Shown here piece after piece: positions 24,123 through 54,424 of a DNA stretch of 64,000 bases. The notes below the pieces were generated by a model that worked only from the letters and a program-made list of their open reading frames with translations, did not search any database and had not been told where the DNA came from. The position numbers and the translations under genes are program-made. The stretch is from NCBI RefSeq assembly GCF_009937995.1, contig NZ_AP021881.1, forward strand, positions 1,364,001 to 1,428,000. Direction: 5' to 3'. Within the stretch, counting starts at the first letter, position 1. Each line of letters starts with the position of its first letter. Source of the stretch: Sulfuriferula nivalis (lineage in GTDB: Bacteria > Pseudomonadota > Gammaproteobacteria > Burkholderiales > Sulfuriferulaceae).

Positions 24123-24226
24123 GGCATCTAGGGTTCCGATTCCAGCAATGGAGTGTCTGGACCGAGAGTTGTCCGGTCTCAGTTAGCTGAGATTCCACGG
24201 AGGGATAAAAGCCCGGGAGGTTGCGA
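24123..24226 (+). ncRNA. guanidine-I (ykkC) riboswitch controlling the first guanidine operon
   Basis: The diagnostic conserved blocks of the ykkC class are present in order: CTAGGGTTCCG, the GTCTGGACCGAGAG stretch with its hairpin, and CACGGAGGGATAAAAGCCCGGGAGG. Guanidine-I riboswitches turn genes on when guanidinium binds. Downstream, GGGAGG-TTGCGA (24215-24226) can pair with TCGCTTCAGCCTCTC (24234-24248), followed by a weak T-rich stretch, a likely but imperfect terminator-type expression platform. The genes downstream are the expected guanidine-assimilation set. Confidence 0.95.
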
Positions 24227-24350: not shown

Positions 24351-25181
24351 ATGTCAGCGACTAAACAAACTCCTTCATTAACATCAGTACGCAAGCGCAA
24401 GTTGTGGACCATTCGAGGTCATTTGAACCACAAAGAATTCCTGTTCTTTGCTGCTGTCGGCATGCTTGTTCCATTCATTGGTTGGTGGTTGATGGCCAAT
24501 AGTGGCATGATGGATAAGGTCTTCCTGCCCAGCCCTATGGACGTACTAACACGAGTTTATCATTGGTATGAAGATGATGATCTGATCGGGGATGCCTGGA
24601 TCAGTATTTATCGTGTAACGATTGGTTTCTTGTTATCCGCTATTCTTGCTGTGCCTCTGGGGGTAATGATAGGTACCTATCGCCCAATGCAAGCCTTGTT
24701 TGAGCCATTGACGGACTTTATTCGTTATATGCCTGCGGTTGCATTCATTCCTCTGGTTATGTTGTGGGTGGGGATAGATGAGGGTTCGAAAATCGCCATT
24801 ATCTGGATAGGTACATTTTTCCAGATGGTGTTGATGGTGGCCGAGGATATACGCCGTGTGCCCATGGCACAAATAGAAGCAGCTCAGACTATGGGCGCGG
24901 GCAGTGAAGAGATAGTTTCCATGGTGATTTTGCAGTCGGCCAAGCCGGCGTTGCTCGATACTATGCGCGTTACCATGGGCTGGGCCTGGACTTATCTGGT
25001 GGTGGCGGAAATGGTAGCGGCGAACTCGGGCTTAGGCTACGCCATTCTTAAAGCACAACGTTTCTTGCAAACAGACAAAATTTTCGCGGGCATTATTTTG
25101 ATTGGACTGATAGGTTTGATCATGGATCAATTGTTCCGCTTTGCGCATCGCAAGAGTTTCCCCTGGTTGTATAACAAATAG
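24351..25181 (+). CDS. ABC transporter permease (SsuC/TauC type), probable guanidine uptake
   Basis: The 276-residue inner-membrane permease has about six membrane segments and the BPD-type EAA loop near residues 175-195 (EAAQTMGAGSEEIVSMV). It resembles permeases for taurine, aliphatic sulfonates and nitrate. With the next gene it forms the membrane part of an importer. Its place under a guanidine-I riboswitch with carboxylase genes points to guanidine or a guanidino compound as substrate (inference). No binding-protein gene is adjacent; the best candidate is at 50796-51803. Confidence 0.88.
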   Translation: MSATKQTPSLTSVRKRKLWTIRGHLNHKEFLFFAAVGMLVPFIGWWLMANSGMMDKVFLPSPMDVLTRVYHWYEDDDLIGDAWISIYRVTIGFLLSAILAVPLGVMIGTYRPMQALFEPLTDFIRYMPAVAFIPLVMLWVGIDEGSKIAIIWIGTFFQMVLMVAEDIRRVPMAQIEAAQTMGAGSEEIVSMVILQSAKPALLDTMRVTMGWAWTYLVVAEMVAANSGLGYAILKAQRFLQTDKIFAGIILIGLIGLIMDQLFRFAHRKSFPWLYNK

Positions 25182-25190
25182 GTGTATCTC

Positions 25191-26039
25191 ATGGATAACA
25201 AAATACAAATTAATTCAGCAGGTAAGATTTTTACCACTGACAAGCAGGATGTTGTAGCGTTGCAGGACGTTAACTTATCCGTTGGTGCTAATGAGTTTAT
25301 TACCTTTGTCGGCGCATCTGGCTGTGGTAAATCGACCTTGTTGCGCTGTATCGGTGGCCTGGAAACACTTAGCTCCGGCGAAATCACCGTGAATGGTCGC
25401 GCAGTACAGGGTCCTGGTGTAGACAGAGCGATGGTGTTCCAGAATTACAGTCTGTATCCATGGCTATCAGTAGTCGATAACATCAAATTCAGCCGCCGTT
25501 TGAAAGTAAACCGCGAAGGTGCGACTTCTGCTGAAGTTGAAGTAGCCTCGGGGCGTGCGGATGCGCTGCTATCGCTGATGGGGTTGGCACATGCTGCCAA
25601 GGCGTATCCTAACCAGCTTTCTGGCGGTATGCAGCAGCGCGTGGCGATTGCACGTGCTTTATTGCCTAAGCCGGAAATACTGCTGATGGATGAGCCGTTT
25701 GGTGCGCTGGATGCGCAGACCCGAGAAGTCATGCACGATCTGATTCTGCACCTGTTCAATCTGGAGAAAACCACCATCGTGTTTGTGACCCACGATGTGG
25801 AAGAAGCTATCTATCTTGGTCAGCGTATCGTGCTGATGGCACCGCGCCCGGGGCGTATCGACACGATTTATGAGGTGCCGTTGCCGGATAAGCGTAATCA
25901 GGAAATGAAACTGTCACCTGAGTTTATAGCGTTAAAGAAGGAAATTCTGACCCGCATTCGGGAAACGTCTGGTATGCATACAGATACGGATTTGCTGGAG
26001 CAAATGACTCGGCAAGCCGAAGGTAGCGAAGCAGTTTAG
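25191..26039 (+). CDS. ABC transporter ATP-binding protein (SsuB/TauB type)
   Basis: The 282-residue ATPase has Walker A GASGCGKST (about residue 42), signature LSGGMQQRVAIARAL and Walker B ILLMDEPFGALDAQTR. It energises the permease encoded just upstream. I choose the ATG at 25191 over a GTG at 25182, since the GTG touches the permease stop and AGGTG lies before the ATG. Family and context point to import of guanidine-type substrates. Confidence 0.88.
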   Translation: MDNKIQINSAGKIFTTDKQDVVALQDVNLSVGANEFITFVGASGCGKSTLLRCIGGLETLSSGEITVNGRAVQGPGVDRAMVFQNYSLYPWLSVVDNIKFSRRLKVNREGATSAEVEVASGRADALLSLMGLAHAAKAYPNQLSGGMQQRVAIARALLPKPEILLMDEPFGALDAQTREVMHDLILHLFNLEKTTIVFVTHDVEEAIYLGQRIVLMAPRPGRIDTIYEVPLPDKRNQEMKLSPEFIALKKEILTRIRETSGMHTDTDLLEQMTRQAEGSEAV

Positions 26040-26073: not shown

Positions 26074-26811
26074 ATGAAATCAGAAAATACAACATACAGC
26101 CCGGATAGTGTGATGTGGGAAGAAGTTATTCCCGGTGGCGCGCATTGGTCATTTAATGTGAAACGTGGCACCACGTTGCGCGTTACTGATATCGGAGGCG
26201 GTGCCAACCTGTCGGTGCTGTTTTACAGCCAGGATGAAAAACTGGAGCGTTACAACATGGCCGATACGCTCAAGGCACAGCATACCGCACACCTGACCAA
26301 GGGCTTTGTGTGTTATTCAGACATGGGACGCGTGCTGTGTTCCATTACCGAAGATAGTTGCGGCTGGCATGACACCGTGTGCGGGATGACTGATGCTGCG
26401 CAGATGCTGGCTAAATACGGTGAAGCGCGTTACCAGACTCACCTTAATGCCATGTACCGTAACGGACGTGACAGCTTTTTGATTGAGCTTGGTAAATGGG
26501 GCCTGGGTAAGCGCGACATCGTGGCAAATATTAATTTGTTCAGTAAAGTCAGCGCTGACGAAGACGGCAACTTGATGTTCCAACCAGATAACTCAGTAGC
26601 AGGTGATTACATTGATCTGCGCTTTGAAATGGATACGCTGGTTGTGCTTGCCGCTACTCAGCATCCACTCGATCCGAATCCGCAATATCAGCCTAAACCA
26701 GTAAAACTCACCGCATGGCATTCCGAACTGCCAGGAGCTGACGATTATTGCCGCAATTTCCGTCCGGAAAACCAGCGCGGCTTCTATAACACTGAATTGT
26801 TGTACCGTTGA
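26074..26811 (+). CDS. carboxyguanidine deiminase subunit (urea carboxylase-associated protein 2, DUF1989)
   Basis: This 245-residue DUF1989 protein is annotated in older genomes as urea carboxylase-associated protein 2. Published biochemistry (Schneider et al. 2020) showed that the two DUF1989 proteins of such clusters form a carboxyguanidine deiminase (CgdAB) that removes ammonia from carboxyguanidine to give allophanate. A shared motif [12 protein letters not shown] (about residues 90-101) holds Cys and His residues likely to bind metal. The second subunit follows 13 bp downstream. I do not assign A or B, because the sequence alone does not settle the naming. Confidence 0.87.
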
Positions 26812-26824
26812 GAGGGGCTCTAAA

Positions 26825-27463
26825 ATGGCTATCGTAGAAAGTAAATTTGATCCTAAAGACGCGGTGTACGACGAAATCGTACCAGCGGGCGAACCCTGGC
26901 TGCATGAGGTCAAAAAGGGGCAAACATTCCGCATTCTGGATCTGGAAGGTAATCAGGCAGTTGATACATTGTTCTATAACGCACATGAGTCCACTGACCG
27001 TTACAGCGCGGTTGATACCATACGCGCGCAGGGCAATCTCTATCTGACCGCTGGCTCCAAGCTATTGTCCAGTGAGGGTAACGTGCTGGTAACTATTACT
27101 GCGGATACCTGTGGTCGCCACGATACGCTGGGTGGCGCTTGCGCTGCGGAAAGTAACAGCGTGCGTTATGAAACTGGCAAGAAATTCATGCACAGCTGTC
27201 GTGATAGTTTTTTGCATGCGCTGGGTCACTGTGATTGTCATATGGACAAGCGTGATCTGACCAGCAATGTCAATTTTTTTATGAACGTGCCAGTGACCCC
27301 AGAAGGCAAACTGACGTTTGAAGACGGCATTTCCGCTCCGGGTAAATACGTGGAAATGCAAGCCGAGATGGATGTGATGGTGCTGATTTCTAACTGCCCG
27401 CAGTTAAATAACCCATGTAATGGCTATAACCCGACACCCGTTCAGTTATTGATCTGGAATTAA
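26825..27463 (+). CDS. carboxyguanidine deiminase subunit (urea carboxylase-associated protein 1, DUF1989)
   Basis: The 212-residue DUF1989 protein is a paralogue of the preceding gene product: both start with a [14 protein letters not shown]-like or [12 protein letters not shown]-like segment and share the [13 protein letters not shown]-type motif. Together they should act between guanidine carboxylase and allophanate hydrolase. The gap to the carboxylase gene (27464-27551) contains two short inverted repeats, TGCAGG/CCTGCA and GATGGGACGCCCCGTCAT, which may affect mRNA processing or relative expression. Confidence 0.87.
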
Positions 27464-27551
27464 CGAGCTGATATTAATTAAGGTGCTGCAGGACGACCTG
27501 CAATAACAAAAATAATGATGGGACGCCCCGTCATGGAATGGGAAAAAGATC

Positions 27552-30500
27552 ATGTTTGATAAAGTACTGATAGCCAATCGTGGTGCCATTGCGTGCCGCA
27601 TTATCCGCACACTGAAAAAGCTGGGGATACGCTCGGTCGCCGTATATTCGGAAGCCGATGCACACTCGCTGCATGTGGCACAAGCTGATGAAGCCGTGTG
27701 CATAGGACCCGCACCTGCTGCAGAAAGCTATCTGCGAGCAGAAAAAATACTGGAAGTCGCCAAACAGACGGGTGCACAAGCCATCCATCCTGGTTACGGC
27801 TTTCTGTCCGAAAATGCCGCATTTGCCGAATCCTGTGCCGAGTCCGGTATTGTATTCATGGGCCCGACACCAGATCAGATGCGTCGTTTCGGCCTCAAGC
27901 ATACTGCTCGTGAAATCGCCGAGCAGAATCAGGTGCCTTTGTTGCCAGGTAGCGGACTGCTGGCTGACGCTGGACATGCTCAGGCTGAAGCCGCACGCAT
28001 CGGTTATCCGGTGATGCTCAAAAGCACAGCAGGTGGCGGCGGCATCGGTATGCGCCTGATCTGGAGTGCGGATGAGCTGGTTGAGGCATTTCAATCGGTA
28101 GCACGTCTCGCCAGTGCCAACTTTAAGGATGCCGGTATTTATCTGGAAAAATATGTCGAGCAGGCGCGTCACATTGAAGTACAGATTTTTGGCGATGGTA
28201 AGGGTAATGTGGTCGCACTCGGCGAGCGTGATTGTTCAGTGCAGCGCCGTAACCAGAAGGTGATAGAAGAAACTCCTGCGCCAGGTTTAACCGACGTCCA
28301 GCGTGCGCGTTTGCTGGCGACAGCAGTGCAATTGGGCAAGGCAGTGAATTATCAGTCGGCCGGTACCGTCGAGTTTGTCTACGATGCGCAGAATGGCGAG
28401 TTTTACTTCCTCGAAGTGAATACACGTCTGCAGGTAGAGCATGGTGTTACCGAACAGGTAACGGGTATAGATCTGGTGGAATGGATGGTACGTCAGGCTG
28501 CGGATGATCTGCCAGCGCTGGGCAGTATGACCATTAATCCGCAAGGCGCGTCTATCCAGGTGCGCCTGTATGCTGAAGATCCGGGCAAGAATTTTCAGCC
28601 TTCCAGCGGCGTGCTGACGGAAGCGGTTTTCCCAGACAGCGCCCGTGTTGACACCTGGGTAGAGCGGGGCAGCACGATACCACCGTACTATGACCCTATG
28701 GTGGCAAAAATCATCGTCACTGCTGATGACCGGGAACAGGCGATAGCCAAGATGCAAGACGCGCTGGACGCGACCCATATAGCTGGTATCGAATGCAATC
28801 TGGATTACCTGCGTCAGATCATCCGAGATCATGTGTTTGTTGAAGGTAAACAGACCACGCGCTACCTGAATGCCTTACATTATCTGGCAGCGACTATCGA
28901 CGTGCTGGAGCCCGGCGTGCAGAGCAGCATCCAGGATTATCCTGGGCGCCAGGGTTACTGGGATGTGGGTGTGCCGCCTTCAGGGCCTATGGATGCACTG
29001 GCATTTCAATTGGGCAACCGTTTGTTAGGTAATGATGATAATGCCGCTGGCTTGGAATTGACTGTGGCGGGTCCTACATTGCGCTTTAACCGCGACAGCG
29101 TGATAGCGCTGACGGGTGCAGCTATGACTGCGGAACTGGATGGCGAGTCGCTGACATTCTGGCGTGCGTTACCAGTCAAGGCTGGTAGCGTATTGCGTCT
29201 GGGCAGCATACAGGGCGACGGCTGCCGCAGCTATCTGACGGTGGCGGGTGGTTTCGACGTGCCGGATTATCTGGGCAGTAAATCGACATTTACTCTGGGG
29301 CAGTTCGGTGGCCATGCTGGCCGTACATTAAGGGTAGGCGATGTGTTGCATCTGGGTTCAGCACCAGCCGCTGCGCAAGCGGAGGTCGTACTGGATACCG
29401 CATTGGTGCCTGAGTATCACAGCCACTGGGAAATCGGTGTGTTATATGGCCCGCATGGTGCACCGGATTTCTTTACCGATGCTGATATCGATATGTTTTT
29501 TTCTACCGACTGGGAAGTGCATTACAACTCCAGTCGTACCGGCGTGCGCCTGATCGGACCCAAGCCACAATGGGCACGGACCGATGGCGGCGAAGCGGGC
29601 TTGCATCCTTCCAATATTCACGACAATGCCTATGCAATTGGCGCGGTCGACTTTACTGGCGATATGCCGGTCATACTGGGGCCGGATGGTCCTAGTCTGG
29701 GTGGTTTCGTTTGCCCTGCAACCATAGTGCAAGCTGAATTGTGGAAAATGGGACAATTGCGTCCAGGCAATACTGTGCGCTTCAAGCGTATCGGGCTTGC
29801 TGAGGCTATGCAGCGTGAGCTGGCTCAGGACTCAGCTATCAAGACTTTGGCAGTGACAGTAACAGCTGATGTCACCGACTTGGCAACATCTACCCCAGTA
29901 TTACATCGTGTTGAAGAACAGGACGGCCAGGTTGCTGTGACCTATCGTCCTGCTGGCGACAAATACCTGCTGGTGGAATACGGCCCGCTGGTGCTGGATA
30001 TTAACCTGCGCTTCCGCGTGCATGCGCTAATGACCTGGCTGCAACAGAAGAATGTGCCAGGCATCATTGATCTGACCCCAGGTATTCGTTCGCTGCAGGT
30101 GCATTACAACAATCAGCTACTGCCGCTGCCACAGCTGATGGCGGCACTGTCCGAAGCAGAATCGGCTCTCGCCAACATCGAAGATCTGGTAGTGCCAGCC
30201 CGTATCGTGCATCTGCCATTGTCTTGGGATGACCCGTCCACTCGTTTGGCCATTGAAAAGTACATGCAATCGGTGCGTAAAGATGCGCCATGGTGCCCAA
30301 GCAATATCGAGTTCATTCAGCGTATGAACGGGCTGGACAGCATCGAACAGGTGAAAGAAATCGTATTCAACGCCAGCTATCTGGTAATGGGGCTGGGCGA
30401 CGTCTACCTCGGCGCGCCAGTAGCAACACCGCTGGATCCGCGGCATAGACTGGTAACGACCAAGTACAACCCAGCGCGTACATGGACGCCGGAAAACGCA

Positions 30501-31154
30501 GTGGGTATCGGTGGCGCCTACATGTGTGTGTATGGCATGGAAGGTCCTGGCGGCTACCAGTTTGTCGGCCGCACCATCCAGATGTGGAATCGTTACAAGC
30601 AGACTGCCGATTTCATTGACGGCAAGCCATGGCTGCTGCGCTTCTTTGACCAGATTCGTTTTTATCCTGTGTCGGAAGATGAACTGCTGAAACTGCGCGA
30701 AGACTTTGTCGCGGGTACGTTCAAGCTCAAGGTGGAAGAAACCACATTCAGCCTGCGTGAATACAACACATTCTTGCAGGATAACGATGCCGATATTGCA
30801 GCGTTTCGGGAGAAGCAGCAGATCGCTTTCAACGCCGAGCGTGAGCGCTGGAAGGCAAATGGACAGGCTGATTATGCCTCTGATGCCACTGTGGCCGAAG
30901 CGTCAACCGATAGCGAACTGGATTTGCCGCCTAACAGCCGTGCAGTGGCAGGTCATGTGGCCGGAAATATCTGGAAGATAGAAGTAGCCGAGGGCGATAT
31001 GGTTGAGGCGGGCGACACTTTGCTGATTATTGAATCTATGAAAATGGAAATCAACGTGGTCGCACCATCTGCTGGCAAAGTAATACGCCTGTACTGTCGT
31101 GAAGGTAGTCAGATATCGGCAGGTCAAGACTTACTGGTGATACAGGGGGAATAA
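27552..31154 (+). CDS. biotin-dependent guanidine (urea) carboxylase
   Basis: This 1200-residue single-chain enzyme has an N-terminal biotin carboxylase part (residues 1 to about 450, ATP-grasp [13 protein letters not shown]), a central carboxyltransferase part with KipA/KipI-like (AHS1/AHS2) modules, and a C-terminal biotinyl domain with the acceptor Lys1164 in [10 protein letters not shown]. It carboxylates its substrate with bicarbonate and ATP. Old annotation is urea carboxylase; enzymes in guanidine-I riboswitch operons with CgdAB have been shown to prefer guanidine. Here the riboswitch and both deiminase subunits support guanidine as substrate. Activity on urea as well is possible, as no urease is present in the window. 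Confidence 0.92.
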
Positions 31155-31155
31155 T

Positions 31156-32961
31156 ATGGAAAATTTGAGTCTGGATATTGCCAATTTACGAGCGCTGTAC
31201 AACAGCGGCGCGTTGACACCGCGTGGTCTGATCGACGTGGTGCTGGCACGTACTGCCGGGAATAATGAAGACCATGCCTGGATCTATCAATTATCCGCTG
31301 AGCAACTCTATGCGTATGCGGATGCGCTGGCAGACAAGGATCCAACACAGTTGCCGCTATATGGTATTCCGTTTGCGATTAAGGACAATATTGATCTGGC
31401 TGGCGTGCCGACAACGGCAGCGTGCCCGGAATTTGCCTATACGCCTGAGCAAAGTGCTGCAGTCGTAAAACGACTGATCGATGCAGGCGCCATTCCTATA
31501 GGCAAGACCAATCTTGACCAGTTTGCAACTGGACTCAATGGCACACGTTCACCTTATGGTGCTTGTCGCAATTCTTTTAATCCGGAATATATCTCTGGTG
31601 GTTCCAGTGCTGGTTCAGCAGTATCCGTCGCCAAAGGCTGGGTCAGTTTCAGTCTGGGCACAGATACCGCCGGCTCAGGACGAGTGCCTGCAGCATTTAA
31701 TAATCTGGTCGGGCATAAACCTACCTGTGGCTGGCTATCGACGACTGGGATGTTGCCAGCTTGCCGTTCACTGGATGTGGTATCGGTATTCGCGCTGACT
31801 GCAGAAGATGCGGAAAGAGTAGTAGCGGCTGCAGCCAGTGCCGATGAAACCGATATTTATTCACGTAAAGTTGAAGCGCATGGATTCGATTTTGGTAGAG
31901 CAGCAGTATTCAATTTCGGCGTGCCGCGGGCAGATCAGTTAAAGTTTTTTGGCAACGTTGAAGCTGAGCGACTGTTTGGTGAAGCGGTAGTACGGTTACA
32001 GTCGCTGGGTGGACAGGTGGTAGAGATTGATTTGGACCCTTTTCTGGAAGCGGCACGATTGCTATACGATGGCCCATGGGTAGCAGAGCGCTATGTAGCA
32101 CTCAAGGATTTCTTTGATGCACATGCCGATAAAGTGTTTCCACCAGTGCGGGAAATCATCGGCGGCGCCGCACGCTATTCCGCAGCGGATGCTTTTGCCG
32201 GCCAATACCGTTTGCGTGAACTGAAGCAGCAGGCTAATAAGGTCTGGGATGTAGTGGACTGTCTGATAACACCGACGGCAGGGACAATATATACCATAGC
32301 CGAGATGCAGGCCGACCCGATCAAGTTAAACTCAAATCTTGGTTATTACACTAACTTCATGAATCTGTTTGATTATGCGGCGGTGTCAGTGCCTGCTGGA
32401 TTCCAGCAGGATGGGCTGCCATTTGGTGTAACGCTGGTCGCGCCCGCACATCAGGATGCGCCATTGCTGCATCTGGCAGCGCGTTGCCAGCAGGCAGTAG
32501 CAACGCCGTTAGGGGCGACTGGCATCGCTCAGCCAGTACCTGCAGAATTACCAGCGTTATTGCCATCGGGACAGATACGCGTTGCCGTATGTGGTGCACA
32601 TTTATCCGGCTTACCGTTGAATTGGCAGCTCACTCAGCGTGGCGCACGATTGGTGCAGACTACGACCAGTTCACCAGACTACAAATTCTATGCGCTACCT
32701 GGCGGACCTCCATATCGTCCTGGCATGGTACGCGTCAAACCGGGCGAGCAGGGTGGTGCAATTGTAGTTGAGGTGTGGGAAATGCCGGCGCGCGAATTCG
32801 GTTCATTTGTCGCTGGGATACCTGCGCCATTAGGCATAGGTACGATTACACTGGCGAGTGGCGAGTCAGTATTAAGCTTTATCTGCGAAAGTTATGCGGT
32901 AGTGGATGCGGTGGATATTACCCACCTAGGCAGCTGGCGTGAGTATCTGAATACAAAATAA
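31156..32961 (+). CDS. atzF: allophanate hydrolase
   Basis: The 601-residue amidase-signature enzyme hydrolyses allophanate to ammonia and CO2. The Ser-cisSer-Lys triad is visible: Lys in FAIKDNIDLAG, Ser in SGGSSAGSAVSV and the nucleophile region DTAGSGRVPA. The C-terminal domain (about 470-601) matches the AtzF extension that removes the carboxyl group. The gene starts 1 bp after the carboxylase stop. It completes the path guanidine - carboxyguanidine - allophanate - ammonia. Confidence 0.94.
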   Translation: MENLSLDIANLRALYNSGALTPRGLIDVVLARTAGNNEDHAWIYQLSAEQLYAYADALADKDPTQLPLYGIPFAIKDNIDLAGVPTTAACPEFAYTPEQSAAVVKRLIDAGAIPIGKTNLDQFATGLNGTRSPYGACRNSFNPEYISGGSSAGSAVSVAKGWVSFSLGTDTAGSGRVPAAFNNLVGHKPTCGWLSTTGMLPACRSLDVVSVFALTAEDAERVVAAAASADETDIYSRKVEAHGFDFGRAAVFNFGVPRADQLKFFGNVEAERLFGEAVVRLQSLGGQVVEIDLDPFLEAARLLYDGPWVAERYVALKDFFDAHADKVFPPVREIIGGAARYSAADAFAGQYRLRELKQQANKVWDVVDCLITPTAGTIYTIAEMQADPIKLNSNLGYYTNFMNLFDYAAVSVPAGFQQDGLPFGVTLVAPAHQDAPLLHLAARCQQAVATPLGATGIAQPVPAELPALLPSGQIRVAVCGAHLSGLPLNWQLTQRGARLVQTTTSSPDYKFYALPGGPPYRPGMVRVKPGEQGGAIVVEVWEMPAREFGSFVAGIPAPLGIGTITLASGESVLSFICESYAVVDAVDITHLGSWREYLNTK

Positions 32962-42135: not shown

Positions 42136-42921
42136 TTAAGTAATAAACCAGTGGCGACTGATTATGCCATTTACTGTCTGTACATCCTGAATATATTCGG
42201 CCTTAGTCTGTGAAATTTCAGCCCAGTCAGATGTGGTGAATAACGGTGTGCCTTCACGAAATGGCAAAGTTGAGAGTTGAATTTCCCATGGCAGGCTGCC
42301 TTGTGTCAGACGTCCGAATGAGATTTCGAAATCCAGCATGGCAATAAGTTGTGGGTGAGTGTAACTCGTATCGTCCAACAGGGCGGTTAGTGAGGTTGCA
42401 TGTGGTAAGGGGTGACTGCGGTCGCGTACGAAAATGAAATAGTCACCACTGACTACCAAGATTCCCGCTTGTGACTGTTCGGGGCTGCGTGTTGTATTTT
42501 TCTCCGTAAAGCGTAGGGCAAAGGTAGCACCTTGGCTGTCGGGTAATTTTTCCCAGATTTCAGTGTAATCACGCGCTATGCCTGATTCTATTAAGTGATT
42601 ATCATTGAATTGCATGCGGCCGATATCCAGATCAGTTCTGGCTGGCTGATAATCGAGTTGGCGTATCCATTGGCATGTATCATCAACGACACGGGTTACT
42701 CCTGCAAATCCTAGCTGGCGCGCTAATTGTTTTAATTCGGTTAATGAAAAATCCTGTAGTGATGCCTTCCCGCTAAAATCTGGGCGATCTGCTGGGATAC
42801 GTATATCTGCGTGTAATGATGGTGTTTGCAGCCAGTACACCTGAGTTGTGTTGTCTATACCTGCAGGGCTTTCAAGCTGCTTGCGTTGCCATACCCCCAG
42901 ATATTGTTCGGGGACTGTCAT
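42136..42921 (-). CDS. HRI1-domain-like protein, last gene of the second guanidine operon
   Basis: The 261-residue soluble protein begins [17 protein letters not shown] and contains [16 protein letters not shown]. This pattern recalls the Protein HRI1 family (fungal HRI1 and bacterial relatives), predicted to be two lipocalin-like barrels; function unknown. The start overlaps the upstream GGDEF-EAL stop by 4 bp (ATGA), so it is translationally coupled. A longer upstream frame exists but would overlap more. In bacteria such proteins may bind a small ligand, which would fit a catabolic operon; that is inference. Confidence 0.6.
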
Positions 42922-45065
42922 GTGATATTCAATCCGTTGCGCAGTAGCGATTCCATTTCTGGCGCAGGAACTGGGCGGCTGAAGTAATAACCTTGGATTT
43001 CGTCGCAATGGTGCTGTTTTAAAAATTCATAATTGGCCTGAGTCTCTACGCCTTCAGCAACTACTTTTAGCCCTAGTTCATGCCCCAGTGTGATGATGGC
43101 GCGGACGATGGCTTCATCGTCGGAGTTGGTATCTATTTCCTGCACAAAACTTTTATCTATTTTCAGATGGTTAACCGGGAAGCGCTTGAGATAACTCAGG
43201 CTGGAATAGCCAGTACCAAAATCATCTATAGCCAGTGCGACACCAAGCTTTTTCAGGCTCGTGATCGCTACGTTAATGCGTTCCGCATCCTGCATGAAAA
43301 ATGATTCTGTCAGCTCCAGTTCGAGGTATTGCGCATCCAGACCTGATTGCAAGAGGGTATTGGTAACCAAGTCAATCAGCGTAGGCTGGCGGAACTGGAT
43401 AGGTGACAGGTTTACCGAAATGCTAATCGGTGTCAGTCCTGCATCTTGCCAGCTGCGGTTCTGGCGACAGGCCTCTTCCAGTACCCATTGTCCGATAGGA
43501 ATAATCAGACCTGTTTCTTCGGCAATAGGTATGAATTTATCGGGTGGAATCAGTCCTTTTTCCGGATGTAGCCACCGTACCAGTGCTTCTGCACCTATGA
43601 TGTTGCCATTGGCGGCATCGATACGGGGTTGATAGTAGACGCGGAACTCGAAATTTTCTATTGCGTGGCGTAATTCGTTAATGAGCTCCAGTCGGCCTGT
43701 CGCTGCCACACTGAGTTCAGGTTGATACAGATGGAAGGTGTTTCTGCCTGCGTCTTTTGCCTTATACATAGCGGCATCTGCACACTGCAAGAGTGCCTCG
43801 GCAGTGTCGCCATCCTTGGGAAAGCAGCTGATGCCTACACTACAGCTGAGTGTATATTCATGCTGGTCATTAATCCAGGGTTGAGATATAGATTCGAGTA
43901 AGCGCTGGATGATATTGCCGACATGGTGTTCATCAATCTGCTCGGTCAGCACTAGTATGAATTCGTCACCACCAAGCCGGGCAACGGTGTCTTGACTGCG
44001 AATACAGTTACTGAGGCGGGACGAAACTTCGAGCAGCAGGCGGTCACCGACATGGTGGCCGAGACTGTCGTTAATCAGTTTAAAGTGATCCAGATCAACA
44101 AAGACAATGGCGACTTTTTCATGTTCATATTTGGCTCTGCTGATGGCACGTTCTATTCTGTCCATCAGCAATATGCGATTGGGCAGGTTGGTTAGTGTGT
44201 CATGGCTAGCCTGATGCTGTAAGGCTTCTTCATGATTTTTACGTTCGGTGATATCCACCACCGTACCTTCGTAGAATTCGACTTCGCCGTTTTCATTAGT
44301 GACTGCGCGGGCATTCTCGGATATCCAGATGATACTGCCGTCTTGTCGATAGACTTGAGACTCAAAATTGCGTACATAGCCAGACATCGACATGATGCGT
44401 ACGAAATCATCTCGGCGTGATGGGTCGACATAGAGCTGATGCTGGATGTCCTGCAATGCAGCGATCATACTTTCGGGAGAGGGGTAACGATAGATCCGAG
44501 CCAGTGCTGGATTAGCGTCAATGTAGCAACCATCGGGTGCGGTTTGAAAGATTCCTTCAGTAGCGTGTTCAAAAATACTGCGGTAGCGCCTGAGTACTTC
44601 GTGCAGGGCTTTGTGGGTGGAGACGCGATCGGTAATGTCCTGAATAAATCCTTCTACAGCTACTGCTTTGCCATGTTTATCGACTATACCCAGTCCACGT
44701 TCAGATACCCAGCGTATGGCACCATCGCGGCGGATAATGCGGTATTCGATGTTGTAACTGGTGTTGGCAATCAGTGCATTTTGTATTGTTATATAGACCA
44801 GATGCAGGTCGTCAGGATGGGTGATTTTCTCATATGAGATGACATCGTCCCGTATCAGGTCGTTGGGTTGGTAGCCAGTGAGTTCCACACAGCCCGCGCT
44901 GACAAACTCCATCGTGCCGAAAGCCTTGGCTTTACAGCGGAATAGCATCCCGACCAGATTTTTGGTGATAGCATTAATCAATCCGGCTGAATCAAGTTCA
45001 CTCGACGATTCTGGCGTGAATTGACAGAATTTGGCTTTAATTATGCTGGTTGCGGGCAGTTTCAT
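42918..45065 (-). CDS. PAS-PAS-GGDEF-EAL cyclic-di-GMP signalling protein
   Basis: The 715-residue protein has two PAS/PAC sensor domains (about residues 25-150 and 155-280), a GGDEF domain with an intact RLGGDEF motif near 365 and an EAL domain with GAEALVRW near 475. There is no clear transmembrane segment, so it probably senses a cytosolic signal. Both output motifs are intact, so it could make or degrade c-di-GMP. It lies 7 bp after the lactonase-like gene and overlaps the HRI1-like gene, inside the riboswitch-controlled operon. Confidence 0.93.
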
Positions 45066-45072
45066 AAGTATC

Positions 45073-45852
45073 CTATTCGTGGAATTCGGGGAACTGCCGC
45101 AGCGTTCTCCAGAAACTGATATCGTGATTAGGCCAGAGTATTGCTTTTTCTTCTGCCGCCAGTGTTTTAAGTTTACGTATGCTGGCGATAGCCTGATCCT
45201 CCTGATCTTGCCAGCATAGCCCAGGTGGGACTTCGTCCATAATGTTCTCAGTCAGATCGGCCGCATCACCACATAAAATCACGGGTGCGCCCTTGGGTAA
45301 TTCTATCCACAGCGACATGTGTCCAGCAGTATGGCCAGGCGTGGATATGGCGCGTACACCTGGTGCTACATCATATTCACCCTCCATTACTTTCCAAGGG
45401 TAATCACCAGAAAAGTCATCAGGGAAATAGCCTATGTCCTGACCTGTTTGTGCTGCTTCCATTTCAGCCTTTTGTACATGTACTTCTGTGCCACACACAT
45501 CACATAATCCTCCTGCGTGGTCAAAATGCAAATGGCCTATAAATACTACGTCCACATCGGCAGGAGTCAGTCCCATGCGTGCCAGATGGGCAGGCAGTCG
45601 CTGACTCTCATCCATTTCGGGTGCACCGAACGGAAATATTTCAGGGTCATAGTAATGTTGACGCTGAGTTGAATCGGCTATCTTGTTATAGTCGCAACCA
45701 ACGTCATAGAGTATACGTCCGTTTGCTGTTTCAATCAGATAGGCGAGGATAGGGGCCTCGATGATTTGTCCTTGCCCGCGGTGTCGCGTGGAGAGGGACT
45801 TGTCATAGTGATGGGTTGCCGTCAGTAATGGCCAGAGTTTTTTAACTTGCAT
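45073..45852 (-). CDS. metallo-beta-lactamase-fold hydrolase, lactonase-like
   Basis: The 259-residue protein has the zinc motif HLHFDHAGG (about residues 107-115), the later His in [11 protein letters not shown], Asp in CGDAADL and a final WPNHD. The general pattern is that of N-acyl-homoserine-lactone lactonases (AHL lactonase group), which open lactone rings. In this operon it more likely opens a cyclic or ester-like intermediate, but signal quenching cannot be excluded. It overlaps the isochorismatase-family gene by 11 bp. Confidence 0.8.
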
Positions 45853-46519
45853 GACTGGTCTGATCCTCTGTAGTTGTGTCTGCTATCAGTTGTAACATTG
45901 CATCGGTATTGAGTACTTTGCCAAATATGCCACCTTCAACCTCTATCATGGACAGGCTGGCTTGATGTAATTCCGGATATGCTGAGCCACAGGCATCGCT
46001 GATGGTGATGCAATCCCATCCATTTTCTACAGCTGCTCTCAGCGTAGATTGCACACAAATCTCAGTCGTTACACCAGTGATAATGAGCTGGGTTATCTGC
46101 TGGCTGCGCAGGATAATTTCGAGATCGGTTTGATGAAATGCGCTATAGCCGGGTTTGTCGATAATGACTTCACCTGCAATCGGCGTCAGCTCATCTATGA
46201 AATCATGGCCATATTCACCACGTATAAGCAGTTTACCCATAGGTCCATCAGAACCTATGGCTGCTGCGGCACGAGCGCTACGTGCCTTTTTACTTGGCAT
46301 ACAATCCAGCATGTCACTGTGATGACCTTCGCGTGTGTGGATGACCAGCATGCCTAGTGCACGTGCAGTATTGAGCAGTTGTTGAATCTGCGGGATAGGC
46401 TTGCGCAGATTAGATATGTCGAGGCCTGCCATCTCTGCGTAACCGCCAGCTGCACAAAAATCGCGCTGCATATCAATAATAATCAGGGCTGTACGGTTTA
46501 ATGGATATGGCAAATTCAT
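45842..46519 (-). CDS. isochorismatase-family (cysteine) amidohydrolase
   Basis: The 225-residue protein has the triad of the isochorismatase-like hydrolase family: Asp in LIIDMQRDFC, Lys in IIDKPGYSAFHQTDL and Cys in GVTTEICVQSTLRAA. Relatives include N-carbamoylsarcosine amidase, biuret hydrolase and a guanylurea hydrolase found in metformin degradation, all acting on urea- or guanidine-like amides. That makes an amide or guanylurea-type substrate plausible here. It lies 2 bp downstream of the creatininase-family gene. Confidence 0.87.
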   Translation of the reverse strand: MNLPYPLNRTALIIIDMQRDFCAAGGYAEMAGLDISNLRKPIPQIQQLLNTARALGMLVIHTREGHHSDMLDCMPSKKARSARAAAAIGSDGPMGKLLIRGEYGHDFIDELTPIAGEVIIDKPGYSAFHQTDLEIILRSQQITQLIITGVTTEICVQSTLRAAVENGWDCITISDACGSAYPELHQASLSMIEVEGGIFGKVLNTDAMLQLIADTTTEDQTSHAS

Positions 46520-46521: not shown

Positions 46522-47292
46522 TTAAGTCTGATTAAATTCTGCGACTACGGCTTGCGCAATACGAGCGGCTAGCTCTTTCGCCATGATTTCACCTTTTTCC
46601 GCATCGGCACCTAGCGCAGAAGAAAGTACGCCTGATGGAGGAACCCAGTCAGGGTTGGCGGGATAAATGTCGTAGGGTGGAAAATCAGCGGGACCATCGT
46701 CAGGGATTAAATCAAGCCGTACCAAATCAGGATGGTAATGCAGCATCAGTGAGGTTTCGATTATGGCTGCATGTTCCAGTGCATAGCCTGGGAAACCATT
46801 TGGGAATACGCTATGTAATGTGGTTTCAGTCAGGAAATCCCAGTATTCCAGGCGCATCACGCGCAACTTGGCACCTGGCTGGATATCACGCATGGCCAGA
46901 TCGATGCCTTCGGTGATAAACCACTGATTTTCAAAATGACCATTGACGATCACCAGTTTTTCTACTCCATGACGTGCAAATTCACGTACCGTGTCGCGAA
47001 CCAGGCCAATCAGTGTTTGTGCATCAACTGAAGTAGTGCCGCAGAAATGTTGCCCGCCGCCGCATTTTGGTTGAGATTTGTAACCATATGACAGTGCTGG
47101 TGCAACGATGCCGTTGATTAATTCTGCTGTGCTGGCTGCTACAGCAGCAGACAATAGGGCATCCGTTCCCAATGGCAGGTGCGGACCATGTTGTTCGAGC
47201 GCCCCAACGGGTAAGAACACGGGTGGGTTGGTGGTTTTGATCTGGGCACAATAAGCAACCCAACTCATTTTGTTCATGTTGACGGTATTCAT
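46522..47292 (-). CDS. creatininase-family amidohydrolase
   Basis: The 256-residue enzyme has the family metal-binding motifs: PVGALEQHGPHLPLGTD (Glu, His, Asp) near residues 26-42, NGHFENQ near 118 and a Glu in AAIIETSLML near 175. Creatininase itself opens creatinine, a cyclic guanidine, to creatine; other members cleave formamides or peptide ends. Under a guanidine riboswitch, a cyclic guanidino or ureido substrate is attractive, but the sequence does not decide between these. Confidence 0.87.
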   Translation of the reverse strand: MNTVNMNKMSWVAYCAQIKTTNPPVFLPVGALEQHGPHLPLGTDALLSAAVAASTAELINGIVAPALSYGYKSQPKCGGGQHFCGTTSVDAQTLIGLVRDTVREFARHGVEKLVIVNGHFENQWFITEGIDLAMRDIQPGAKLRVMRLEYWDFLTETTLHSVFPNGFPGYALEHAAIIETSLMLHYHPDLVRLDLIPDDGPADFPPYDIYPANPDWVPPSGVLSSALGADAEKGEIMAKELAARIAQAVVAEFNQT

Positions 47293-47300: not shown

Positions 47301-48191
47301 CTATTGTGATTCAGCAGAAGTATCTGTTGCCTCAATGACAGCAGCGCAAGCAATAAGTATGCCGCCTATCATTTCGCGGGGCATAATTTTTTCACCGCCG
47401 ATGACCATAGCTGAAATAACAGCGGCTAGTAATTCAACGATGAGGATAATGCCGGCGCGTCCCGTTTCAATATGGGTTACGCCGTATTGAGTGGTGAAAG
47501 TCGCCAGTGCCAGCCAGCCAAAGCCAAAAGCGAGTAGTGCAATGATTAGATTGGGTGACCAGTCTGGCTGGATCGCATGTTGCTGTAACACCAGTAACCC
47601 GGAAACTATGCCACATCCAACGAATACGGCTATGGTTTTTGATACCATGGGGATGGTATGCGCAGCACGGGTCACCAGATTGTTTGAAGCGAATGCCAGA
47701 CCAGCGGATAATGCCAGCACATCGGCAACCGATAATGGCGTAGCAAACGCCGCCGTGCCACCGATTACTAAAAATGCTCCCAGAACGGATATAAATACCG
47801 CTAACATGCGACGTCTGGTAACGGTTTCATGCAGAAACACGCGCCCGCCGATGACTGACCAAACTGGTGCCAGATAAAACAGCAGCATGACGCGTACTAC
47901 GTCACCTGTGAGTAACGCCTGGACGATGGATGCATTAGCCCAGCCGCCAAACAATCCAAGCAGCAACAATAATCTGGTTTGCCCTTGCCAGATACGGCGT
48001 TCACGCAACAGAAAAGGCAAGCCTACCAAGCCGACCAGACCGTAACTGACAAATGAAATTAACGGACCTGATAATCCAGCTGCACCAAACTGTTTAAGTG
48101 GCCACCAGATGATGCCCCACATGCCAGCTGAAAGTGTCAGGACAGTGAGTGGCAACCATGCTTGTGGAGAAGTGCGTGTCAGGTTGCTCAT
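47301..48191 (-). CDS. EamA/DMT-family membrane transporter
   Basis: The 296-residue protein has about ten membrane helices in two EamA repeats (first half ending near residue 140). The family moves small metabolites, often outward. Guanidine riboswitches also control exporters, usually of the SMR type; this larger relative may export or import a pathway compound. The start at 48191 overlaps the SDR stop as ATGA; an upstream extension is rejected. Confidence 0.85.
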   Translation of the reverse strand: MSNLTRTSPQAWLPLTVLTLSAGMWGIIWWPLKQFGAAGLSGPLISFVSYGLVGLVGLPFLLRERRIWQGQTRLLLLLGLFGGWANASIVQALLTGDVVRVMLLFYLAPVWSVIGGRVFLHETVTRRRMLAVFISVLGAFLVIGGTAAFATPLSVADVLALSAGLAFASNNLVTRAAHTIPMVSKTIAVFVGCGIVSGLLVLQQHAIQPDWSPNLIIALLAFGFGWLALATFTTQYGVTHIETGRAGIILIVELLAAVISAMVIGGEKIMPREMIGGILIACAAVIEATDTSAESQ

Positions 48192-48940
48192 GGCATGACG
48201 GACCCGCCATTGGGACCCAGTACCTGGCCACAATAGAACCGGGCGTAATCAGACACGAGAAATAGCACTGTGGTAGCAATTTCATCAGGTTCTGCAAAGC
48301 GTTGATAGGGGATGTCCTTTTCTTTCTCTATACACTCTTCAGACATGTATTCTGTTGTCATCATGGCCGTGTTGACTGGGCCAGGCGCAACGGCATTGAT
48401 GCGGATATGGGGTGCAAACTCTCGTGCCAGAGAGCGGGTCAGGCCGATTACACCTGCTTTTGCTGCACAATAAGATGAATAATCTTCACGTCCAAGATAA
48501 GCCAGATCGGAACTGATATTGACGATAATGCCGTTGTCCCGTTTCGCCATCTCGCTGAGAACAGCCTGGCTGCATAGAAATACTGATTTAAGGTCGCTGT
48601 TTATGACGTGATCCCAATCTGCTTCGGTAATCTCCAGAAATGGTTTTTCTGCAATGACGCCAGCATTATTTACCAGTATGTCTATTTGACCGCAGCTTGC
48701 TACCATTTGCCGTACCTGGTGAGCGTTGGTGACATCGGCCTCAACTGCATGGGCATGACCACCTTTGGATGTGATGATTTGTACTACTTGTTCAGCCTCA
48801 CGGGCACGATTAAGGTGATTTACGATAACCGTTGCACCTGCATCGGCAAGCATGATGGCGATAGCACGACCTATCCCGGTGGCAGCGCCAGTAACAATTG
48901 CTGTTTTATTGTGTAATGTTATATTCATGATGGTCATCAA
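48188..48940 (-). CDS. short-chain dehydrogenase/reductase (second of two)
   Basis: The 250-residue classical SDR has the cofactor motif TGAATGIGRAIA, NNAGVIAE, Ser in VNISSDLA and the YCAAK catalytic Tyr-x3-Lys. It is probably an NAD(P)-dependent alcohol or carbonyl oxidoreductase. The start region (MMTIMN) overlaps the stop of the other SDR by 4 bp, and the stop overlaps the EamA start. Substrate unknown; it likely works on an intermediate made by the desaturase-like enzyme. Confidence 0.88.
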   Translation of the reverse strand: MMTIMNITLHNKTAIVTGAATGIGRAIAIMLADAGATVIVNHLNRAREAEQVVQIITSKGGHAHAVEADVTNAHQVRQMVASCGQIDILVNNAGVIAEKPFLEITEADWDHVINSDLKSVFLCSQAVLSEMAKRDNGIIVNISSDLAYLGREDYSSYCAAKAGVIGLTRSLAREFAPHIRINAVAPGPVNTAMMTTEYMSEECIEKEKDIPYQRFAEPDEIATTVLFLVSDYARFYCGQVLGPNGGSVMP

Positions 48941-49722
48941 TGCATGACCTCACCATTACTTACGACGATAGCTTGACCAGTAATCGCGCGCGCATAAGGT
49001 GAGGCGAGGAAAAGGAAAGTGCCAGCAATATCTGCTGGCATGAGTAACTCGGGTATAGCTTGCTGCGCCAGAATTTCAGCTATCATTTCTGATTCGGATT
49101 TATCTGCTGTTTCTGCCATTGCACGCATGGAACGCATTGCTGCCTCAGTCGCAACCCAGCCTGGACAAACTGCATTGACACGAATTTTTAGTTTGCCTAA
49201 TTCCCATGCCAGCGAACGCGTCAGACCAATAACCGCATGCTTGCTGGTGACATAGGCGGAAAAGTCAGCCACAGCACTCATACCCCAGATAGAAGACTGA
49301 TTGATGACGCAGCCTGAAGAAGATATGAAAGGCAATAGTGCACGTGTCAGCAGATACATACTGCTGACGTTGTTGTGCAACAGGCTTTGCCAGCGCTGCT
49401 CGGCATCGGTTGCTGCATCGTTCAATGGCGTCGGGTATTCCATGCCTGCATTGTTGATCAGTGCGTGGATGGTGATCTGCCGTTGTTTGAAGTTGTCAGC
49501 TAAAGCATGGATCTGTTCTGCATTGGTTAAATCCAGCGCATGTGTCGTAACTTTTGCATGTTTAGCCAGTCGTTGTGCAGCAGCTTCCAGCGCATCTGGA
49601 TTGCGGTCTATCAGTTCTAGGTTTGCCCCGTGCTCGGCAAATGCCTCTGCAATAGCCAGCCCGATGCCGCTGGCGGCCCCCGTAATGACTATCGTATGAT
49701 CAGTAAAGTCGAGATTTGCCAT
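48937..49722 (-). CDS. short-chain dehydrogenase/reductase (first of two)
   Basis: The 261-residue classical SDR has TGAASGIGLAIAEAF, NNAGMEYP, the serine in NQSSIWGM and the catalytic YVTSK. It is distinct from its neighbour in sequence, so the two probably act on different steps or cofactors. It begins 1 bp after the desaturase stop, within the operon. Confidence 0.88.
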   Translation of the reverse strand: MANLDFTDHTIVITGAASGIGLAIAEAFAEHGANLELIDRNPDALEAAAQRLAKHAKVTTHALDLTNAEQIHALADNFKQRQITIHALINNAGMEYPTPLNDAATDAEQRWQSLLHNNVSSMYLLTRALLPFISSSGCVINQSSIWGMSAVADFSAYVTSKHAVIGLTRSLAWELGKLKIRVNAVCPGWVATEAAMRSMRAMAETADKSESEMIAEILAQQAIPELLMPADIAGTFLFLASPYARAITGQAIVVSNGEVMH

Positions 49723-49723: not shown

Positions 49724-50743
49724 TCAAACTGCCGTCAGAAATGACACGCCTACAGCGCCATAGAATGCAGAAGGATCCAGATGTCCAGGTGATGTTTCCG
49801 GCACGTCACCATAATCATCCGACAGTATGCGCTTCACCCGATAGCGGTGATGGGCAGCCAGTAACGTGCTCATAGGTAATACTTGCTGATACTCCGCTGC
49901 AAATAATTTGGCATGTAATGCTGGCAAACGATACCAGGGTTCGATAGGGCGCTCATGATGGGCGTTGTGATAGGAAAAATTCAACAGCATCAAGTTTAAT
50001 AGTGGATGTGCAACTGAAACCAGATTGGAGTAGGTGTTGCGTTGTTCGTAAGTGCGGTCACGTATTTTGTCATTGGGAACCTCACCACCTTGCAGGATGG
50101 CAAAAGCATCATAGGTGTGCTGGTAGGCATCGGCAAAACGCAGCACGTGCAGCATGATTAAATATGCGATGGCGTAACCCAGTAAACCCGCGGGTGAGAA
50201 CCAGCCTAGCGCAGCAAATGCGATAGCGCGTACAACAAGTATGGTCAGTACGCGAGCGCGGTTCTGTTTTTTCTCGGCAGCCACAAACGGCAAGACCATG
50301 ACATAGCCGTGCATGATTAACTCTACTGCTGGTATGTATGCCCACTCCAGCATCAGTACCAGACGACGTACCCAGGCTGGTGATTTGAGCAGAAAAGCCT
50401 TGAAATCGAAGGTGATGACGTCGGCACGGTCAACATGGTGACGTACATGCTTGCGTCTAAGATCATTAAATGTGGCATAGCAAGAGCCGTTAATCCAGGT
50501 CATTAACGTGCCCCAGCGAGCATTATCCTCAGCCGTTTTGAATATAGAGTTGTGTGCAAATTCGTGGAAAAAATATCCGGATAAAATCAGTGCGTGGGCA
50601 ACCAGCAAGGTGCCGATAATCTGTCCCCAGATGGGTGCCAATATAAGTAACAGCAGGCCGCCAACATAGGCACCTAATGTATAGGATAAGGCAAGCACAT
50701 TCGGCACAACGCCGTCGGCATAGCGAAATTTTTGATTCAACAT
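49724..50743 (-). CDS. membrane diiron fatty-acid-desaturase-family enzyme (hydroxylase/desaturase)
   Basis: The 339-residue integral membrane enzyme has the three histidine boxes of the desaturase/hydroxylase superfamily: HEFAHN (about residue 60), RRKHVRHH (about 97-104) and YHNAHHE (about 255-261). It has several hydrophobic helices between them. These boxes bind two iron atoms and activate O2. The family includes fatty acid desaturases, alkane hydroxylase-like and other small-molecule hydroxylases. Within a guanidine-riboswitch operon a lipid role is less likely than hydroxylation of an alkyl-guanidine. Start at 50743 has GAGGAG 7 bases upstream. Confidence 0.87.
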   Translation of the reverse strand: MLNQKFRYADGVVPNVLALSYTLGAYVGGLLLLILAPIWGQIIGTLLVAHALILSGYFFHEFAHNSIFKTAEDNARWGTLMTWINGSCYATFNDLRRKHVRHHVDRADVITFDFKAFLLKSPAWVRRLVLMLEWAYIPAVELIMHGYVMVLPFVAAEKKQNRARVLTILVVRAIAFAALGWFSPAGLLGYAIAYLIMLHVLRFADAYQHTYDAFAILQGGEVPNDKIRDRTYEQRNTYSNLVSVAHPLLNLMLLNFSYHNAHHERPIEPWYRLPALHAKLFAAEYQQVLPMSTLLAAHHRYRVKRILSDDYGDVPETSPGHLDPSAFYGAVGVSFLTAV

Positions 50744-50795: not shown

Positions 50796-51803
50796 TTACT
50801 TAACTAAGGATTTGACGAACTGACTGTCAATAGTGGTTTCAGTAGCAGGGATGGTCGTAATTTGACCTTTACTTTTCAGAATGTTGCCGATGACTTCGCC
50901 ACTTGCGAAGTAGGAAGTGGTTTCTGCGGATTTGATGAACGCTTTAGGCATTTCAGCAAGTGGTATGTTGTAAACACCTGACATCTGATCCATGGCTTCT
51001 TTTCCGCTTACACCCATAGCTTTACCGATAATTTTGGCTGATTCGTCAGGGTGGGCTTTCATGTAGTTCAAACCATCTACGTAGGCTGCGATCAGACCAG
51101 TGATTTCTTTTGGATGTGCCTGGATATATTTCTGATCAAATACTAAAACGTCAGCAATCAGACCAGGCGCATTTTTGGAGGAAAACACTACATGGAATTT
51201 TTTGCCATTACCCTGACTCAGGATTTGGGACAGGCTAGGCTCATAGGTAACGCCGACAGGAATGCTATTGGACGCCATGGCAGCGGGTACAGCTTCAGGC
51301 GACATAGGTACGGCTTCAAAGTCTTTTTCGGACAAGCCATTCTTTTTCAGTGCGTAAGAGAGCAGGAAGTCAGAAGGTGATAATGGGTTGAAACCAATTT
51401 TCTTACCTTTGAAGTCAGCCACTTTAGTAATGGCTGTGCTGGCAACAATTGCATCACCACCATTGGAATAGTCGATAGGCATAACAACTTTTTGTGACAG
51501 ACCTTTAGCATCAGATCCGATTACCTGGTCATAAGTCAACATGCCGCCGTCAACAGAGTGGCTGGCTATTGCAGTTGGAATGAGTGCAGGGTCAGTGAAC
51601 ATTTGCAACGTGACTTTGAGGTCATGTTTCTTGTAGAAATCTTTGGCATCAGCAACGAAAAAAGGACCGTAGCCTACCCATACCACGGTACCAATTTTCA
51701 TGCTGGTAGTGGCGTGCGCAGCTATAGGGCTCATGCTGGCTGTCGCGAGCATCACTGAGGCAAGACAAACTTTTTTAAGCGATTTGGAATGTAATATTGA
51801 CAT
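50796..51803 (-). CDS. ABC transporter substrate-binding protein (NMT1/SsuA-like), guanidine-riboswitch controlled
   Basis: The 335-residue periplasmic protein has a Sec signal peptide (first about 31 residues, ending in AAHA). Its two-lobed binding-protein fold is of the NMT1/THI5/SsuA group (TSMKIGTVVWVGYGPFFVAD near the mature start; NPLSPSDFLLSYALKK). It is the first gene after the second riboswitch. Permease and ATPase partners are missing here but present without a binding protein at 24351-26039, so the two loci together make one importer (inference). TAGGAG precedes the start. Confidence 0.87.
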   Translation of the reverse strand: MSILHSKSLKKVCLASVMLATASMSPIAAHATTSMKIGTVVWVGYGPFFVADAKDFYKKHDLKVTLQMFTDPALIPTAIASHSVDGGMLTYDQVIGSDAKGLSQKVVMPIDYSNGGDAIVASTAITKVADFKGKKIGFNPLSPSDFLLSYALKKNGLSEKDFEAVPMSPEAVPAAMASNSIPVGVTYEPSLSQILSQGNGKKFHVVFSSKNAPGLIADVLVFDQKYIQAHPKEITGLIAAYVDGLNYMKAHPDESAKIIGKAMGVSGKEAMDQMSGVYNIPLAEMPKAFIKSAETTSYFASGEVIGNILKSKGQITTIPATETTIDSQFVKSLVK

Positions 51804-51834: not shown

Positions 51835-51858
51835 GGGAAAGCAACTGTGCTCTCTCCC
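51835..51858 (-). terminator. riboswitch-2 terminator hairpin with T-tract
   Basis: On the minus strand GGGAGAGAGCA pairs imperfectly with TGCTTTCCC and is followed by GTTTTATTTTT (51824-51834). The GGGA arm overlaps the conserved 3' end of the aptamer (CCCGGGAG), so guanidine binding would prevent terminator formation. This is a transcriptional on-switch. Confidence 0.75.
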
Positions 51859-51950
51859 GGGCTTTTATCCCTCCGTGGAACCTCTAGCGAGGCCGGACTG
51901 CTCTCGGACCAGACATCCCATTGCTGGAACCGGAACCCTAGCTATCCTAA
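51851..51950 (-). ncRNA. guanidine-I (ykkC) riboswitch controlling the second operon
   Basis: Read on the minus strand, the conserved ykkC blocks occur in order: GCTAGGGTTCCGG, GTCTGGTCCGAGAG, and CCACGGAGGGATAAAAGCCCGGGAG. It is clearly related to the riboswitch at 24123-24226 but has different variable loops. It lies 50 bp upstream of the binding-protein gene. This is strong evidence that the ten genes downstream respond to guanidine. Confidence 0.95.
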
Positions 51951-52011
51951 TACAGACATGAGTGTGAAAGGGCTGTGTAGAGCAGCCACTTTCCCGTCTT
52001 GCACTTAGTTA

Positions 52012-54417: not shown

Positions 54418-54424
54418 CGCGAAT

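Follow-up and report, generated by a model that had tools for sequence, protein, structure and literature searches.

The window, a stretch of 64,000 nucleotides of the Sulfuriferula nivalis genome (contig NZ_AP021881.1, positions 1,364,001 to 1,428,000), contains two Guanidine-I riboswitches, and an Rfam scan over its whole length found nothing else. One of them leads an operon of ten genes on the minus strand, in which adjacent genes overlap or stand a few bases apart; the second gene, which we call DES, is the focus of this analysis. The operon is listed below in gene order.

51852..51952, minus strand: Guanidine-I riboswitch (RF00442), operon leader (82.1 bits; Rfam gathering threshold 63)
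50796..51803, minus strand: ABC transporter substrate-binding protein (SBP) of the NMT1/SsuA type (PF09084, E 8.1e-27)
49724..50743, minus strand: DES, membrane diiron protein of the PF00487 superfamily, proposed alkylguanidine hydroxylase (profile, fold, tree)
48937..49722, minus strand: SDR1, short-chain dehydrogenase (PF13561, E 2.3e-53)
48188..48928, minus strand: SDR2, short-chain dehydrogenase (PF13561, E 3.8e-59)
47301..48194, minus strand: EamA-type transporter (PF00892, E 4.9e-21)
46522..47292, minus strand: creatininase-family amidohydrolase, CRN (TIGR04448, 359.9 bits; cut-off 235)
45842..46519, minus strand: isochorismatase-like hydrolase, IHL, nearest to biuret hydrolase (PF00857; PDB 6azo, 6xjm)
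45073..45852, minus strand: metallo-beta-lactamase-fold hydrolase, MBL, AiiA/4-pyridoxolactonase-like (PF00753; PDB 2a7m)
42918..45065, minus strand: ORF of 715 aa with GGDEF and EAL motifs, large two-component-style signalling protein (motifs read from the sequence)
42136..42921, minus strand: putative MgdL-family lyase, proposed N-(hydroxyalkyl)guanidine lyase, 261 aa, last operon gene (homology, catalytic residues)

The SBP is similar to the substrate-binding proteins of "putative urea ABC" systems (TIGR03427), with a score below the cut-off, and the start of the lyase gene overlaps the preceding stop (ATGA). A first-pass annotation of this DNA, which had put DES forward as a guanidine-releasing hydroxylase, left out both the Guanidine-I riboswitch and the last operon gene, which is MgdL-like. 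A related GGDEF/EAL ORF occupies the equivalent place in another Sulfuriferula locus (L023) and in a Thiobacillus locus (L072); its recurrence inside the operon suggests a c-di-GMP link of the guanidine operon. The region 52318-63581 is densely packed with genes for nitrogen scavenging: a TonB-dependent receptor and TonB-like genes, divergent from the riboswitch, and then the formamidase FmdA and an ABC transporter set of the branched-chain/urea type.

The other Guanidine-I riboswitch leads a guanidine carboxylase operon on the plus strand.

24117..24221, plus strand: second Guanidine-I riboswitch, leader of the guanidine carboxylase operon (85.2 bits)
24351..26039, plus strand: ABC permease and ATPase (orthologs lie within the DES operon in many other species)
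26074..32961, plus strand: cgdA-like, cgdB-like, carboxylase and allophanate hydrolase genes (homology to the gene set of related loci)

The DUF1989/UAAP assignments in the carboxylase set were made on the homologs at locus L021. The carboxylase operon has no SBP gene, the DES operon has neither permease nor ATPase, and 25 kb lie between them. Because the SBP sits in one operon and the permease and ATPase in the other, the two may share one importer. Many DES operons in other genomes are adjoined by guanidine carboxylase genes.

Conservation of the DES operon

A genome scan supplied the 80 closest DES relatives, from Beta- and Gammaproteobacteria; the locus counts that follow are not independent, since all of these proteins are near to DES and one genus contributed several of them. 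Using a covariance model built from six Guanidine-I matches, we located a riboswitch directly upstream of the operon in 75 of the 78 loci with enough DNA, 1063-1291 bases 5′ of DES; an Rfam scan of the remaining three likewise returned none. Gene order is highly conserved across the loci. The 54 loci with at least 7.5 kb of downstream DNA (long loci) all carry the SBP gene (54/54), and the most frequent partner after it is the MgdL homolog (51/54), followed by CRN (50/54), SDR2 and IHL (48/54 each), SDR1 (46/54), EamA (44/54), and MBL (43/54). The operons of Acidithiobacillus and Thiobacillus have no SDR and no CRN gene and retain DES, MBL, and the lyase. In two other lineages (loci L017 and L021), a Guanidine-II riboswitch stands directly before DES. 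We saw no gene for a dedicated ferredoxin or reductase with the DES operon.

DES is a membrane diiron protein of a separate clade

Translated from the ATG at 50743, the DES ORF gives 339 aa; a GTG farther upstream would lengthen the protein to 347 aa. The three His boxes reported for it at first pass, HEFAHN, RRKHVRHH, and YHNAHHE, are all present in the translation, and their His residues are invariant in an alignment of 36 DES homologs. In profile searches, DES matched PF00487 (FA_desaturase) at 113.8 bits (cut-off 29.7, E 1.5e-32), no NCBIfam desaturase model, and, in PHROGs, at most a weak match; PDB sequence searches with DES alone and with the DES alignment gave no match. The AlphaFold model (pLDDT 88.5) was compared with experimental structures of AlkB and SCD1 (PDB 8f6t, 8sbb, 4ymk), giving a Z score of 11.1 and an rmsd of 4.9 over 250 residues for AlkB and a Z score of 6.0 for SCD1. 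As modelled, DES thus has the four-helix membrane diiron fold of the AlkB/SCD1 type, with the same core and His-box pattern; it differs from both enzymes in its sequence clade and its gene neighborhood.

In a tree of 55 rows, the 36 DES-type proteins form a single clade (support 100/100, branch length 1.91) apart from SCD-like, DesA/DesB-like, AlkB, CrtW, CrtR-like, and GntB-like references, which were labelled by profile similarity, stand in many cases on long branches, and have unresolved relations among their groups. XylM (pWW0) was not among these references, and as no DesA or CrtW homolog above the curated cut-off was found in the sampled genomes, the best homologs below it were used instead. 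The phylogeny called for at first pass therefore does not place DES deep within the acyl-lipid desaturases. Within the clade, the second DES copies of four two-DES operons cluster (95/97) with a paralog from the window's own genome (L013), which lies in a DES-SDR-CRN cluster without a riboswitch. This grouping of sequences suggests that two DES types exist. A DES relative of 36% identity on a Gloeothece plasmid (L112, NC_014533) adjoins genes annotated as ectoine synthase, GNAT acetyltransferase, tryptophan 7-halogenase, and HpaB.

A putative MgdL-family lyase ends the operon

MgdL, an N-(hydroxymethyl)guanidine lyase described in 2025, is a beta-barrel enzyme with catalytic Asp49 and Arg51; together with MgdH it constitutes the methylguanidine demethylase of Vreelandella boliviensis, where both genes follow gca in a guanidine-riboswitch operon (PMC12508155). 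The protein encoded at 42136-42921 has no Pfam or NCBIfam match, and a PDB search with its alignment gave nothing meaningful. We relied on homology and searched its alignment against 369 genomes of the class; the published MgdL sequence itself was not in the comparison. Two matches, in genomes G171 and G365, lie in cgdA-cgdB-gca-dioxygenase-lyase operons in which a Guanidine-II riboswitch separates cgdB from gca; this is the published mgdH-mgdL layout. The window lyase is 36% and 31% identical to these two lyases (E 3e-36 and 8e-27). Its Asp39 and Arg41 stand opposite an Asp and an Arg of the G365 lyase that, in that protein's own numbering, are residues 49 and 51, as in the published catalytic pair. 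The pair is invariant in the alignment, and so are Trp and Glu columns of the guanidine-binding type. The structure model is mostly beta (pLDDT 91) and has partial structure matches of the lipocalin-like kind. Based on the operon layout in G171 and G365, the Asp/Arg pair, the homology, and the beta model, we assign the predicted protein to the MgdL family. It probably acts on the same compound as MgdL; with 31-36% identity to the lyases of the MgdH operons, the hemiaminal that it prefers may therefore differ.

Two further homologs were seen in other settings. On a Novosphingobium plasmid (L111, NZ_CP140001), a gene for a 2OG-Fe(II) oxygenase is immediately followed by a distant MgdL homolog, and carboxylase genes are not nearby. 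In genome G084 (L113), an MgdL homolog stands beside EamA and a guanidine carboxylase gene set.

DES as a candidate replacement for MgdH

In the lyase-bearing genomes, either a dioxygenase or DES adjoins the lyase, with G084 as the exception. A search for DES in three genomes that carry the lyase (G084, G171, and G365) found none. The MgdH ortholog is absent from the window genome and from four other DES genomes (G107, G241, G213, and G369), and the same search finds MgdH in G365 and G171. Because DES and the dioxygenase alternate beside the lyase, MgdH is absent from the five DES genomes searched, and a Guanidine-II riboswitch precedes DES in two lineages, this gene context is best explained if DES produces the substrate of the lyase. 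In G084, the lyase is present and neither DES nor MgdH was detected, and a third hydroxylase may exist there.

We consider it probable that the operon serves to take up and break down an N-alkylguanidine, with methylguanidine as the likeliest one, DES as the hydroxylase, and the MgdL homolog as the enzyme that releases guanidine. DES would hydroxylate the carbon bound to the guanidino nitrogen to give a hemiaminal such as N-(hydroxymethyl)guanidine, which the MgdL-like beta-barrel lyase would split into free guanidine and an aldehyde (formaldehyde in the case of methylguanidine). The freed guanidine would bind both Guanidine-I riboswitches and be degraded to ammonia by the products of the carboxylase operon at 24-33 kb, and its nitrogen would be used. 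DES would thereby do the job of MgdH from an unrelated enzyme superfamily. In V. boliviensis, the Guanidine-II riboswitch binds methylguanidine as well as guanidine and the Guanidine-I riboswitch does not bind methylguanidine (PMC12508155); induction of the DES operon would therefore be by the product. Gene order, riboswitches, conservation, the homology of the lyase with its catalytic residues, and the fold and clade of DES are what the analysis shows; which reaction DES carries out, on what substrate, and with which electron donor, we infer.

The core idea of the first-pass annotation, a desaturase-family protein acting as a guanidine-releasing hydroxylase, thus gains support from the context: the riboswitch in 75 of 78 loci, the lyase with its putative catalytic Asp/Arg pair, the Guanidine-II riboswitch before DES in two lineages, and the search of the window genome that found no MgdH ortholog. 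Other parts of it needed revision. Two SDR genes do directly follow DES, as it had pointed out, but their role as necessary handlers of the aldehyde does not hold, as several DES operons have no SDR1, no SDR2, or neither, and we dropped SDR1 and SDR2 as essential aldehyde handlers. Among the substrates it named, nothing in the operon points to arginine, agmatine, or galegine; methylguanidine fits better.

Some DES loci are arranged differently. At four of them (L014, L017, L019, and L021), a TIM-barrel gene (PF01261) accompanies DES and no MgdL homolog is present at the locus; at L016, there is neither. Because an MgdL homolog is absent from the entire genomes of the three outside loci (L017, L019, and L021), the TIM-barrel protein may replace the lyase. 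The fourth, L014, belongs to the window's own genome (G000:C1, ~1.10 Mb); at 7841-12415 of that locus, a Guanidine-I riboswitch is followed by the TIM-barrel gene and a DES paralog. An inserted element interrupts this paralog, and both ORFs of the element begin in the same way as those at 39163-41188 of the window.

Accessory hydrolases

CRN is 48% identical to Pseudomonas putida creatininase and keeps the equivalents of its metal ligands (E34, H36, D45, H120, and E122) as well as Trp154. Position 174, a Trp in the P. putida enzyme (1j2t), is Tyr in the window CRN; among the operon CRN homologs, it is Phe in 55 and Tyr in 8, together 63 of 65, and never Trp. IHL scored 249.1 bits against the biuret hydrolase model NF050097, below the cut-off of 370, and MBL likewise scores below the curated cut-offs. 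With these three enzymes, the pathway may take in further substrates or handle N-formyl or acyl intermediates.

Comparison with known systems

The DES operon shares with the MgdH/MgdL system a guanidine riboswitch, ABC importer genes, carboxylase genes, and a predicted MgdL-family lyase with the Asp/Arg pair. It differs in its hydroxylase, as MgdH is a soluble 2-oxoglutarate/Fe(II) dioxygenase and DES a membrane diiron protein of another Pfam family and fold, and it carries SDR, creatininase-like, biuret-hydrolase-like, and MBL genes, which the MgdH/MgdL system does not. Ethylene-forming enzyme and the plant homoarginine-6-hydroxylases (PMC11018352) also free guanidine by hydroxylation beside the guanidino nitrogen; unlike the proposed DES pathway, they are 2-oxoglutarate dioxygenases acting on arginine or homoarginine and use no lyase.

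The closest precedent within the desaturase superfamily is GntB, the transmembrane L-arginine gamma-hydroxylase of guanitoxin biosynthesis (PMC10367076), which lies in the membrane, is related to PF00487 proteins, and acts as a hydroxylase on a guanidino compound. The GntB model NF041365 (cut-off 380) picks up several PF00487 proteins and, at E 0.001, not DES. GntB acts on a carbon away from the guanidino nitrogen, the guanidine is kept, and the reaction is biosynthetic. The earlier statement that such a role would be new for the desaturase family has to be narrowed, as GntB already hydroxylates arginine, at a position not beside the guanidino nitrogen. Our literature search found no earlier guanidine link for this desaturase; the riboswitch gene-context surveys of Nelson 2017 and Sinn 2021 lay outside its scope.

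Alternative explanations

SDR1, SDR2, CRN, IHL, and MBL are common in the operon although simple demethylation does not need them, and this speaks against the methylguanidine route. The DES loci that lack an MgdL homolog, the 31-36% identity of the lyase, induction by the product, and the absence of a ferredoxin or reductase gene weigh on the same side. It is conceivable, though we think it unlikely, that the substrate is larger or cyclic. With creatinine, for example, DES would form creatol, an SDR would convert it to creatone, and CRN and IHL would cleave the acylguanidine to free methylguanidine or guanidine, so that MgdL would serve a second step. SDR2, CRN, and IHL are each present in 48-50 of the 54 long loci, the metal ligands of creatininase and Trp154 are intact in CRN, and the grouping of second DES copies with the DES-SDR-CRN cluster L013 suggests a DES type tied to an SDR and an amidohydrolase; a chemical conversion of creatinine to creatol and methylguanidine is moreover known (PMC3775425). 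Against these points, the lack of Trp at position 174 in the operon CRNs means that creatinine itself may not fit, the Acidithiobacillus and Thiobacillus operons do without SDR and CRN while keeping DES, MBL, and the lyase, and we infer the order of the creatol and creatone steps ourselves.

Still less probable is a route on which DES oxidises methylguanidine, an SDR takes the hydroxymethyl product to N-formylguanidine, and CRN, IHL, or MBL cleaves this to formate and guanidine without formaldehyde, the lyase being a side route. The co-location of the SDRs with three hydrolases would suit it, and creatininase-fold enzymes do include formamidases (an NCBIfam ArfB match; PMC9478397). DES operons without SDRs exist, however, the lyase is conserved more than SDR1 or SDR2, and no such pathway was found in the literature searched. 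That DES is an ordinary lipid desaturase or hydroxylase adapting membranes to guanidine, a chaotrope, strikes us as very improbable: its PF00487 membership and membrane location would agree with this, but its clade is separate from the acyl desaturase references, it matches no NCBIfam desaturase model, and its constant partners are the SBP of a guanidine importer and a lyase of the MgdL type rather than guanidine exporters.

Hydroxylation by DES followed by guanidine release through the MgdL homolog is accordingly the reading we prefer for this operon. The broader proposition, that membrane diiron N-dealkylation of guanidino compounds coupled to a dedicated hemiaminal lyase evolved independently of MgdH and is the widespread form in Beta- and Gammaproteobacteria, with the PF01261 TIM barrel as lyase where MgdL is absent, we regard as evenly balanced between right and wrong.

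Significance

The guanidine riboswitches raise the question of where free guanidine comes from in nature. To our knowledge, few guanidine-releasing enzymes have been described, and the hydroxylases among them are all 2-oxoglutarate dioxygenases. If the proposal for DES is correct, a family whose members are labelled throughout as fatty acid desaturases would gain guanidine release as a new activity, and the annotation would have to be corrected in many genomes of Stutzerimonas, Pseudomonas, Hydrogenophaga, Rhodoferax, Acidithiobacillus, and Sulfuriferula. As nitrogen sources, alkylguanidines would then be common enough to account for the independent rise of two solutions with one lyase in common.
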